This document shows positions 17,934-20,214 of a DNA stretch of 64,000 bases, piece by piece. A program made the position numbers and the translations under genes. Source of the stretch: Listeria cossartiae subsp. cayugensis (GTDB lineage Bacteria > Bacillota > Bacilli > Lactobacillales > Listeriaceae); NCBI RefSeq assembly GCF_014229095.1, contig NZ_JAARZC010000002.1:434001-498000 (forward strand), read 5' to 3'. The notes beneath the pieces are model-generated. The model saw nothing but the letters and a program-made list of their open reading frames with translations. It was not told the origin of the DNA and did not search any database. The stretch's first letter is position 1. Every line of letters begins with the position of its first letter.

Positions 17934-18862
17934 AAAAAATGCTCATTGTGGCACTTTTCGCATTAGTAGTTGTACTTGCGGGGTGTTCCAGTCAAAATAG
18001 TGATTCGAAAAAAACAGATGGCAAGTTAAATGTAGTGGCGACTTATTCGATCTTAGCAGATATTGTTAAAAATGTTGGTGGGGACAAAATTGAGCTTCAT
18101 AGTATTGTGCCAGTTGGTGTGGATCCGCATGAATATGATCCGCTGCCAGCCAATATACAAAGTGCAGCAGATGCAGATTTAATTTTTTACAATGGATTGA
18201 ATTTGGAAACGGGGAACGGTTGGTTTGATCGTATGCTTGAAACTGCGGACAAATCAAGAGATGACAAGGATCAAGTGGTGGAGTTAAGTAAAGGCGTAAA
18301 ACCAAAATACTTAACAGAAAAAGGAAAAACCTCAGAAACAGACCCACATGCTTGGCTTGATCTTCATAACGGAATAATCTATACGGAAAATGTACGCGAT
18401 GCCCTTGTAAAAGCAGACCCAGACAATGCGGCATTTTACAAAGATAATGCGGCAAAATACATCGCTAAATTGGATGCATTAGATAAAGAGGCTAAACAAA
18501 AATACGCTGATTTGCCAGAAAATCAAAAAACCTTAGTAACGAGCGAAGGCGCATTTAAATATTTTGCAGCTCGCTACGGTTTGAAAGCAGCCTATATTTG
18601 GGAAATCAACACAGAAAGCCAAGGGACACCAGATCAAATGAAACAAATTGTCGGCATTGTGGAAAAAGAAAAAGTGCCTAATCTATTTGTGGAAACTAGC
18701 GTAGATCCACGTAGTATGGAAAGTGTCTCTAAAGAAACCGGTGTACCAATTTTCGCGAAAATTTTCACGGATTCGACAGCGAAAAAAGGTGAAGTGGGCG
18801 ACACGTATTTAGAAATGATGCGCTACAATTTAGATAAAATTCATGATGGTTTAGCTAACTAA
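17930..18862 (+). CDS. mntA: Manganese-binding lipoprotein MntA
   Basis: A 310 aa cluster A-I solute-binding lipoprotein. Signal peptide plus lipobox VVLAGC put the lipidated Cys at residue 19. Metal ligands of the family are visible: VDPHEYDP (His), TDPHAWLD (His), then Glu and Asp ligands in LFVETSVDP and IFTDS. It captures Mn(II), possibly also Zn, for MntB/MntC. The 3' end lies in the left arm of a direct repeat; a partial copy of the last codons recurs at 20098-20113. Confidence 0.92.
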
Positions 18863-18945
18863 AAAAAGGCGCAGAGATTAACGCAAAATCTCTGCGTTTT
18901 TTTGCGTGTACCGTTTTCCAAACTTGAAGGTATAGAACAAATGCG
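18831..18945. repeat. Direct repeat A: mntA end, terminator and MATE 3' remnant
   Basis: This left copy holds the true mntA 3' end, a terminator, and 18905-18945, which is a decayed copy of the last codons of the MATE gene (28 of 34 bases identical over GCATTT...AAAACGG read on the minus strand, with about 18 bp missing next to it). The partner is at 20098-20214. The 16-mer TAGATAAAATTCATGA is identical in both copies. Confidence 0.75.
18865..18904 (+). terminator. Terminator of mntBCA
   Basis: CGCAGAGATT (18870-18879) and AATCTCTGCG (18887-18896) are followed by TTTTTTT. The same hairpin with a different loop is present at 20121-20153. Confidence 0.93.
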
Positions 18946-19198
18946 GGTATACGCATCCTATTATTCTTAAGTGTGTAGTTGTTTATTAGTCGGAATATTT
19001 AAATTACATAATATATATAATAATTATGATATGATTTATTTAGATACCCGTGGTATTTCTTGCCACTTTTAGTAAAATACTCTGGTGAATACAACCTAGA
19101 CTTAAGTTCTGCCATTCCAATTTTTTAGAAGGATCATTCATGTTACCCTTACGAAATTGGATTTTAAACATAAAACAACAACAGGGAGTAGAGATAAG
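18946..19198. other. AT-rich gene-free stretch before the DUF5067-like gene
   Basis: With the repeat before it, this makes about 335 bp without a gene. It is AT-rich, with candidate -10 hexamers TATGAT at 19025 and 19030 but no well-spaced -35 (TTACAT at 19004 is 15 bp from the first). An upstream segment at 19048-19065 has a short dyad (GTGG...CCAC). No ORF or known RNA was recognised. It probably contains the promoter of the next gene. Confidence 0.5.
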
Positions 19199-20023
19199 AT
19201 GGAAGACGAAAAATACAAAGTTTTGACAACAGAAAATATATTAGGTTCAGCTGGATTTATCCTCGCGTTAACTGGATTAATCTATGCAATTATTGAAATG
19301 TTTACGGGGTGGACTCCCTTGTTAGGATGGATAGTCTTAACAGTAGGATTAATTTTATCGATAATCGGAATTTTTAAGAATCCAAAAGATGTAGGCATTT
19401 CGGGAACGACTATTTCTGTAATAGCTATAAGCTTATTAATTGTAAATGGAGCTAGTTTCAATAGTAAATCTCCTGTTAAGCCTCCAATTGATTCCAACAA
19501 TATAAGGGCTTCTTATATCAATCAAATGGATATGGAGACTCTACAGACTTTATATAACCCTGAAACTATACTAGAACACAAGAAGAAAAAATTAAAGGAA
19601 GCACCAACATTAGAAAATGGTGTGGTAGAGAATGAACGAATCAAAATCCAAATCACGAGTCATAAAATAATCCCAATTGGAGAAAAGGGCAACGAGTCTG
19701 GGAATAAACCTATAATAGCTTTTTGGTTTGAAGTATCAAATAAATCAGGTATATATACTTCAGCACTGGGGAGTTGGGGGGAGTATATTGCTATCTATCA
19801 AGATACAAGGTCTGATTTATTAAATACACTTAAATCCACTACTTTGGATGATGCTCAGTTTTTAGATTCAGCCTCCAGATTATCAGAAGATATAAAAAAA
19901 GGTGCTACTGTAAAATGCGCAATAGCGTATGGATTAGACGATGACGAAATACCAGTGGATTTGGCGTATAGAGACTTTCTTAGTGAAGAAGTATATGGGA
20001 AAATAAACTATCAAATAAAATAA
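19199..20023 (+). CDS. Membrane protein with DUF4190-like N-terminus and DUF5067-like domain
   Basis: A 274 aa protein. The N-terminal third has two or three hydrophobic helices (about residues 12-95; TGLIYAIIEMF, WIVLTVGLILSIIGIF, ISVIAISLLIVNG), as in DUF4190-like membrane domains. The C-terminal part (about 145-270) looks like the DUF5067 fold of secreted Firmicute proteins, with KPIIAFWFEVSNKSG. ATG 19199 has GGGAG upstream; the TTG at 19157 is less likely. Function is unknown. It has many AGA, ATA and TTA codons and seems more AT-rich by eye than its neighbours. It is flanked by direct repeats made of both neighbours' 3' ends, so it was probably inserted. Confidence 0.75.
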   Translation: MEDEKYKVLTTENILGSAGFILALTGLIYAIIEMFTGWTPLLGWIVLTVGLILSIIGIFKNPKDVGISGTTISVIAISLLIVNGASFNSKSPVKPPIDSNNIRASYINQMDMETLQTLYNPETILEHKKKKLKEAPTLENGVVENERIKIQITSHKIIPIGEKGNESGNKPIIAFWFEVSNKSGIYTSALGSWGEYIAIYQDTRSDLLNTLKSTTLDDAQFLDSASRLSEDIKKGATVKCAIAYGLDDDEIPVDLAYRDFLSEEVYGKINYQIK

Positions 20024-20037
20024 ACTATCAAATAAAA
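20004..20037. repeat. Tandem 17-bp repeat at the stop codon
   Basis: Two perfect head-to-tail copies of TAAACTATCAAATAAAA (20004-20020 and 20021-20037). The stop codon of the DUF5067-like gene is the first triplet of the second copy. Confidence 0.9.
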
Positions 20038-20097
20038 TAAAGACTAGCCTATAGACTTTCTTCTATAATAAACCATACAAACACGAGTAAAGCTCAC

Positions 20098-20214
20098 TAG
20101 ATAAAATTCATGAAATAAAAAAACGCAGAGATTAACTTGAAATCTCTGCGTTTTTTGCGTTTAAGGAAAGTTTTTGCTCCGTTTTCCGAACTCGAAGCGA
20201 TAAAATAAATGCGG
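20098..20214. repeat. Direct repeat B: mntA 3' remnant, terminator and MATE end
   Basis: This right copy holds TAGATAAAATTCATGA from near the mntA 3' end (the last codons of mntA are missing), then the shared terminator stem, then the intact MATE 3' end. It is the mirror situation of copy A: here MATE is intact and mntA is a remnant. Confidence 0.75.
20115..20159 (-). terminator. Terminator of the MATE gene, overlapping its stop codon
   Basis: AAACGCAGAGATT (20121-20133) and AATCTCTGCGTTT (20141-20153) form a stem with A/T tracts on both sides, so it is probably bidirectional. The MATE stop codon (20132-20134) sits inside the stem-loop, so the last codons help form it. Confidence 0.9.

Follow-up and report, generated by a model that had tools for sequence, protein, structure and literature searches.

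In a 64-kb stretch of the genome of Listeria cossartiae subsp. cayugensis (hereafter the window; contig NZ_JAARZC010000002.1, positions 434,001 to 498,000), the genes for mntA, a substrate-binding lipoprotein of a metal ATP-binding cassette (ABC) transporter, and for a MATE family transporter are separated by an insert of 1151 bp, the only gene of which encodes a protein with a DUF5067 domain. The insert lies between two imperfect direct repeats of one mntA–terminator–MATE junction of about 130 bp (Table 1). In the left copy, intact mntA meets a worn MATE end; in the right copy, what is left of mntA meets intact MATE. A first-pass annotation, made from the letters of the window, had described the two repeats in this way, and both the alignment of the copies and the open frames agree with it. 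Both mntA and MATE would have kept a complete 3' end and a terminator after the duplication.

The two copies share three blocks in register: 18831-18846 and 20098-20113 are identical at 16/16 bases, 18863-18902 and 20117-20156 at 88% over 40 bases, and 18911-18946 and 20179-20214 at 83% over 36 bases, so that the MATE fragment matches at 30/36 bases and not at the 28/34 given in the first-pass annotation. A self-BLAST of the window, filtered for direct, non-overlapping pairs of at least 40 bp with a spacing of 300-6000 bp and E up to 0.01, returned the junction copies as the only pair (E 1.7e-10). Global alignment of the left copy with the right copy gives 91 identical bases out of 102 aligned, with 29 gap columns. 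The score of the whole copy is 100, which none of 1000 dinucleotide-preserving shuffles reaches (maximum 31), and the score of the MATE part alone is 42, again reached by 0 of 1000 such shuffles (maximum 24). Since both the whole copy and its MATE part exceed all shuffles, the similarity extends beyond the terminator stem, and the direct repeats of the junction are borne out.

The locus has been compared among 25 Listeria genomes, in which G000 is the window genome. The mntA gene is present at 90% identity or more in 15 of them. The site is occupied in three (G000, G019 and G002) and empty in 12, where MATE lies directly downstream of a single junction; it is empty as well in two L. monocytogenes records filed as plasmids. 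The empty single-copy sites that the first-pass annotation had proposed to look for are thus found, and with 3 of 15 sites occupied, the gene with its two junction copies is the minority state among these genomes. The other ten genomes have only more distant mntA relatives, with no MATE match in about 1.5 kb on each side, and are omitted from this count. G016 and G017 are L. monocytogenes, as their left flanks are identical or nearly identical to those of two L. monocytogenes records, and L. marthii and G002 are close relatives of the window genome. From their position in the outer trees described below, G018 and G019 would belong to L. monocytogenes lineages III/IV. A blastn search of the 25 genomes with the insert (E 0.001), in which at most 17 candidates per genome were scored in the first survey, gave counterparts only at this site in G019 and G002. 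The upstream part of the insert alone found only short weak matches elsewhere among the matches listed, and the relatives at the protein level are a partial one in G007 (43% over residues 8-112) and a weak one in G023.

The insert is 1151 bp long in G000, 1134 bp in G019 and 1100 bp in G002, and the empty junction is 129 bp long in G015, G018 and G022. The left joint, AAATGCGG/GTATA, and the right joint, AC/TAGATAAAATTC (the slash marks the joint), are identical in the three occupied genomes, in all of which the left copy stops at the same MATE base and the right copy starts at the same mntA base. This agreement of both joints suggests that there was one insertion event. The right copy of the window aligns with the empty site of G022 at 117 of 117 identical bases with 12 gap columns; it retains 15-16 bases from the end of mntA, after which 11 bp are missing. 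The left copy lacks 14 or 15 bp just before the MATE remnant in comparison with G002 (gap columns in two alignments), fewer than the 18 bp or so estimated in the first-pass annotation. The left loss of 14-15 bp is found only in G000 and G019 and the right loss of 11 bp only in G000 and G002, and the right copy of G019 retains the whole mntA end.

In blocks of 400 bp, the identity between G000 and G018/G019 is 82-95% in all but one of the 18 blocks to the left of 16.1 kb (the exception has 97%), 96-99% in the five blocks that adjoin the insert (17331-18930 and 20131-20530) and 91-94% in the three blocks after 20530. G017 is 84-92% identical to G018/G019 in the same five insert-flanking blocks. 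From 21.7 to 23.3 kb, every pair shown is at least 92% alike, which says nothing either way. Trees of the outer segments (9331-14000 and 23600-28800) place G018 and G019 with G016/G017 at 100/100 support on both sides, and trees of the inner segments place them with G000, G002, G015 and G022, at 94/99 on the left, just under the starred level, and at 100/100 on the right. The local tree is therefore in strongly supported conflict with both outer flanks, as interlineage recombination predicts. Between G000 and G019, the synonymous divergence (dS) amounts to 0.042 for mntA and 0.059 for the insert gene, and outside this region to 0.618 for ctpA, 0.506 for marR and 0.767 for rluD. In these codon comparisons, ctpA and mntC of G015 were left out (26 and 10 stops in the extracted frame, attributed to masked bases), and single stops occur in the extracted frames of mntB (G016 and G017) and MATE (G002 and G019). 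G000 and G002 are sisters in both outer segments (100/99), and this sisterhood is rejected adjoining the insert by the approximately unbiased (AU) test (p 0.006, 0.015 and 0.012). Because the local and outer trees conflict, homologous recombination in the flanking genes is concluded to have moved the occupied allele, with at least one crossing between the two groups. That lineages have exchanged the tract around the insert can be regarded as established by these sequence comparisons, and the present distribution is best read as one insertion followed by descent and flank recombination, not as three insertions. The tract in which G018 and G019 carry mntABC–MATE DNA of the L. marthii clade, being L. 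monocytogenes-like further out, lies at 15300-20900 of the window, with approximate edges.

G018 has no insert and yet carries a flank of the occupied type on both sides. Among 11 aligned genomes, only G018 and the three occupied ones have AAC as the last mntA codon. The best inner-flank tree nests G018 among the occupied genomes at 84/87 and 91/92 for two choices of segments, and its place is unresolved for the third; a clade of the occupied genomes only gives AU p 0.037, 0.179 and 0.038 for the joint segment choices. Scarless loss of the insert in G018 through recombination between the two copies is the simplest reading of these data, which are suggestive only.

As a whole, the following history is given a probability of about 0.75. 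About 1.1 kb with one DUF5067 gene would have been placed once between mntA and MATE, in or on the stem of an L. marthii-like clade, and the same event would have duplicated the junction of about 130 bp; of the first-pass proposal, duplication of the junction upon arrival of the gene is the part that stands. Ordinary homologous recombination of the mntABC/MATE flanks would then have carried the insert into the G018/G019 lineage. The non-functional half of each copy would have decayed afterwards. A later loss of the insert is probable in G018; recombination between the copies is a plausible route for it and would have restored a clean junction.

Several observations weigh against this history. 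The comparison set has one genome per species and no strain series. The left copies do not carry the states common to all six clade I junctions, so that, judged from these sequences, the event may be older than the clade and may have been followed by further losses. The two decay deletions pair the occupied genomes differently, which needs either recombination inside the locus or repeated deletion. The identity between G017 and G018/G019 is low already from about 14.5 kb, and in some places elsewhere, and a single block within the tract (17731) has G016 at 96-97% identity to G018/G019. Low dS between G000 and G019 is also found beyond the tract in the permease gene (0.119) and lspA (0.129), since every pair of genomes is similar in these genes. 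As for the loss in G018, a clade of the occupied genomes only is not rejected in three of five choices (p 0.179 for one joint choice, 0.233 for the left flank alone and 0.095 for the right flank alone), and the length of the A run in the G018 junction equals that of G022 and differs from that of the right copy.

Searches for the source of the insert, which the first-pass annotation had suggested, have found relatives of the protein but no close donor in phages, plasmids, viral contigs, 395 genomes from the order or 398 from the phylum. Two phage records match 50% of the protein each, at 40% and 31% identity, and 13 plasmid records match at 41% at most, six of them spanning most of the protein at 29%. 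At the order level, 36 of the 395 genomes have a match at 1e-8, four of these being Listeria; outside Listeria, the highest score belongs to a relative with 46% identity over residues 131-274, and short matches at the N-terminus go up to 52% (61 residues). At the phylum level there are two matches among the 398 genomes, one of which is the window genome itself. The viral contigs gave three pattern matches, none of which was confirmed as a relative of the gene. A circular donor bearing the junction did not appear in the plasmid collection, which gave only the two L. monocytogenes records with an empty site, and such an absence does not exclude one.

As the mechanism of the first event, a single crossover of a circularised, junction-bearing fragment is tentatively preferred. 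In such a Campbell-type integration, a DNA molecule that was circular from the outset or became circularised would bring in the gene together with a diverged junction and recombine once inside the junction, producing copies in direct order of which the left passes from native to foreign DNA and the right from foreign to native DNA, and this prediction matches the pattern seen. The left copies unite against all six clade I junctions at nine post-stop columns, in three of which they have the state of other species, as expected if a diverged donor supplied the left copy; either this or an event older than the clade accounts for these states. As a precedent in Escherichia coli, the passages on integration in PMC3240628 describe linear plasmid DNA that was circularised and integrated by a single crossover. 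The single crossover named in the first-pass annotation is compatible with all this, but lost constraint on the non-functional halves yields an identical pattern, so that this part of the proposal is no more than a candidate origin. A clade of left and right copies is not rejected in the tree of 91 columns (AU p 0.26, or 0.14 with G018), neither donor nor circle has been found, and a circle needs a junction already joined to the gene. The main alternative, held with some reserve, is that the junction was duplicated in tandem in place and that foreign or distant DNA was captured at the joint by end joining or template switching, which needs no circle. The copies end at identical bases in three genomes, and the insert ends have no consistent repeat shared with the host bases to which they are joined (judged by eye, not computed), both of which fit such a duplication; the states of the left copies that differ from clade I are unexpected for a recent copy unless the event is old.

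An old age is the core of another alternative, in which the gene is ancestral, every empty site is derived and several losses occurred independently. The stem of the left copies is long (0.24, compared with 0.11 for the longest tip), some of their states are those of other species, so that the event may predate the clade, and losses between direct repeats are easy; this is nevertheless unlikely, as 12 of 15 sites are empty and loss would be needed in many lineages. Elements with a tyrosine recombinase typically insert at the 3' ends of genes and restore the 3' end on one side, and an insertion at the mntA 3' end, with the two copies as attL and attR, resembles a remnant of such a site-specific element. 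However, the repeat of about 130 bp reaches past the terminator and into the gene beyond it, no integrase is encoded in the insert, whose only gene is that for the DUF5067 protein, or in the scanned neighbours, and no larger element occupies the site in any of the 15 genomes, which makes this origin very improbable. Foreign DNA flanked by direct repeats would also be left by a transposon or insertion sequence with target-site duplication, but this is scarcely credible here: usual target-site duplications are far shorter than about 130 bp, no inverted repeats are present at the insert ends among the repeats listed, and no transposase is encoded in the insert or the scanned neighbours. A Pfam scan of ten neighbouring proteins, mntA and MATE found no mobile-element family, in agreement with the first-pass annotation that neither transposase nor integrase is nearby.

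The C-terminal part of the insert protein belongs to DUF5067 (PF16729), with 69.1 bits against a curated cut-off of 27, and it is in this domain that it resembles the other PF16729 proteins. A low-confidence single-sequence AlphaFold model (mean predicted local distance difference test score, 49.7) places N-terminal helices at residues 11-36, 41-60 and 69-87; these three hydrophobic helices are read as putative membrane helices, and the C-terminal part is probably beta-rich. Foldseek found nothing in the PDB that reached E 0.001; at the top of its weaker matches stood a Staphylococcus lipoprotein and a YxkC-DacA model. A sequence search of the PDB matched 2llg (E 3.6e-4). PADLOC returned no hit, and PHROGs returned one family of unknown function (E 4e-12). 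The ratio of nonsynonymous (dN) to synonymous divergence of the gene is 0.76 between G000 and G002 and 0.60 between G000 and G019. Between G000 and G002, its dN is 0.201 compared with 0-0.007 in nine neighbours, whose ratios are under 0.05, and its dS of 0.264 lies within the range of these neighbours (0.03-0.43). Among 147 changes in aligned codons there are no stops, compared with about 8.5 expected without selection (P about 2e-4 if all changes are equally likely), and so the gene is unlikely to be a pseudogene. Its frame stays open in spite of its fast change, so that it is probably used. Its product is most likely an extracytoplasmic protein anchored in the membrane, on which selection is relaxed or diversifying. 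Another DUF5067 gene, conserved in the eight Listeria genomes inspected for it, has a frame of 174 codons and a lipoprotein-like start, whereas the insert gene has hydrophobic N-terminal helices and changes far faster. Flanking repeats are not a habit of DUF5067 genes, as only two of 42 loci have a direct repeat of at least 30 nt and only one of these (35 nt) flanks the gene. A 17-nt exact tandem duplication at 20000-20033 spans the stop codon in the window genome only among the three occupied genomes. In the leader of the gene, a small stem-loop at 19050-19066 is terminator-like by pattern; its stem, GTGG/CCAC, is conserved in the three occupied genomes and its first loop base is variable.

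Table 1. Features of the mntA–MATE locus (window positions)
Feature	Position	Strand	Evidence and remarks
mntA-like metal ABC transporter substrate-binding lipoprotein gene, intact	17930..18862	+	Open reading frame (ORF) of 310 aa; Pfam ZnuA, E 5e-89; 3' end opens the left copy
Left junction copy: mntA end, terminator, decayed MATE 3' fragment	18831..18946	.	Repeat search, alignment
Terminator stem-loop, left copy	18870..18896	.	
MATE 3' coding end remnant	18911..18946	-	83% to 20179-20214
Inserted stretch, 1151 bp	18947..20097	+	blastn against 25 Listeria genomes
DUF5067 gene, 274 aa	19199..20023	+	Pfam PF16729, E 4.4e-19; mechanical ORF start TTG at 19157
Right junction copy: mntA remnant, terminator, intact MATE 3' end	20098..20214	.	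Repeat search, alignment
mntA 3' end remnant	20098..20113	+	Following 11 bp missing here and in G002, present in G019
Terminator stem-loop, right copy, with A and T runs flanking either side	20118..20156	.	
MATE family transporter gene, intact	20132..21523	-	ORF of 463 aa; Pfam MatE, E 1e-64; 3' end in the right copy

Beyond the MATE gene, a leader at 21588-21675 precedes the gene for an NCS2 permease; it has no Rfam match, and a similar sequence follows mntA in G007. A PyrR binding site element lies at 26366-26468, 3' of a phosphoribosyltransferase gene, and is all that Rfam detected over the 64-kb window. Over the locus, a Rfam search with E up to 1 gave only three sub-threshold microRNA matches, to the terminators.

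The insert is not described in the accessible text of the open-access Listeria literature searched, and related processes are known from other systems. In the E. coli single-crossover integration, as far as the relevant passages go, duplications of 109-950 bp were found in 14 sequenced clones (PMC3240628); there as here, the insert lies beside direct copies of host DNA in the same size range (about 130 bp here), with no transposase. Those clones had received a laboratory plasmid from a known donor, whereas in Listeria the donor, the circle and the crossover would have to be supposed, and age has worn the copies. Homology-facilitated illegitimate recombination, as outlined in the same passages, also uses one-sided homology to insert foreign DNA beside a homologous stretch; it generally deletes host DNA and mostly shows 3-10 bp of microhomology at the joint (PMC3240628), whereas the present case has a duplication of host DNA, both neighbouring genes, mntA and MATE, are whole and no microhomology is seen by eye. 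In the displacement of type VI secretion system effector-immunity genes in Vibrio cholerae, according to the sections concerned (PMC5361080), a homologous anchor is likewise used, old 3' parts remain and spread occurs by homologous recombination; unlike the orphan genes there, the Listeria insert is a single gene outside any array and with no toxin or immunity relation shown. Within Listeria, 23 genes have been reported only from L. marthii and one strain of lineage IIIC, although 8 of these genes are present also in other lineage III/IV genomes (PMC3019230, in part). The same two groups have probably exchanged accessory genes here, given the assignment of G018/G019. The passages of PMC3019230 on these genes name no mechanism, whereas flanks and approximate breakpoints are visible at the present locus. 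Merodiploids obtained by transformation are not used as a parallel, as the duplications treated in the passages of PMC3784515 arise between existing repeats.

A repeat scan covered 38 stretches, each about 20 kb long. Of the 11 around mntA, only those from the three occupied genomes gave a match, and 16 of the 27 stretches from three other places gave matches, which are unsorted. One of these stretches, L175, carries a direct repeat of 107 nt (90.7%) at 5310-5416 and 7661-7767, the first copy of which lies in the C-terminal part of an ORF of 455 codons, whose start we take to be LXG-like; the repeat may be a piece left by cassette displacement.

It is common for accessory genes to stand singly among core genes without a mobile element in the vicinity, and in the L. 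monocytogenes pan-genome, according to the part of PMC3556495 on variable regions, only half of these regions have identifiable mobilization genes. The insert between mntA and MATE offers a case in which the gain, spread and probable loss of a gene can be followed in the absence of mobility genes. The process is of a known kind, and the example is unusually well preserved, as three genomes, each worn in a different way, still show the scar that the arrival left, together with the tract that carried it and a probable loss. The signature of this scar, a repeated junction of gene end, terminator and gene end, is searchable across genomes. A more speculative idea, on the doubtful side, is that the junction, once duplicated, serves as an improvised pair of attachment sites and makes the gene a reversible accessory gene without a mobility enzyme of its own. 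If so, the gene would sit harmlessly between conserved genes, cross species by recombination of its flanks and drop out without a scar.

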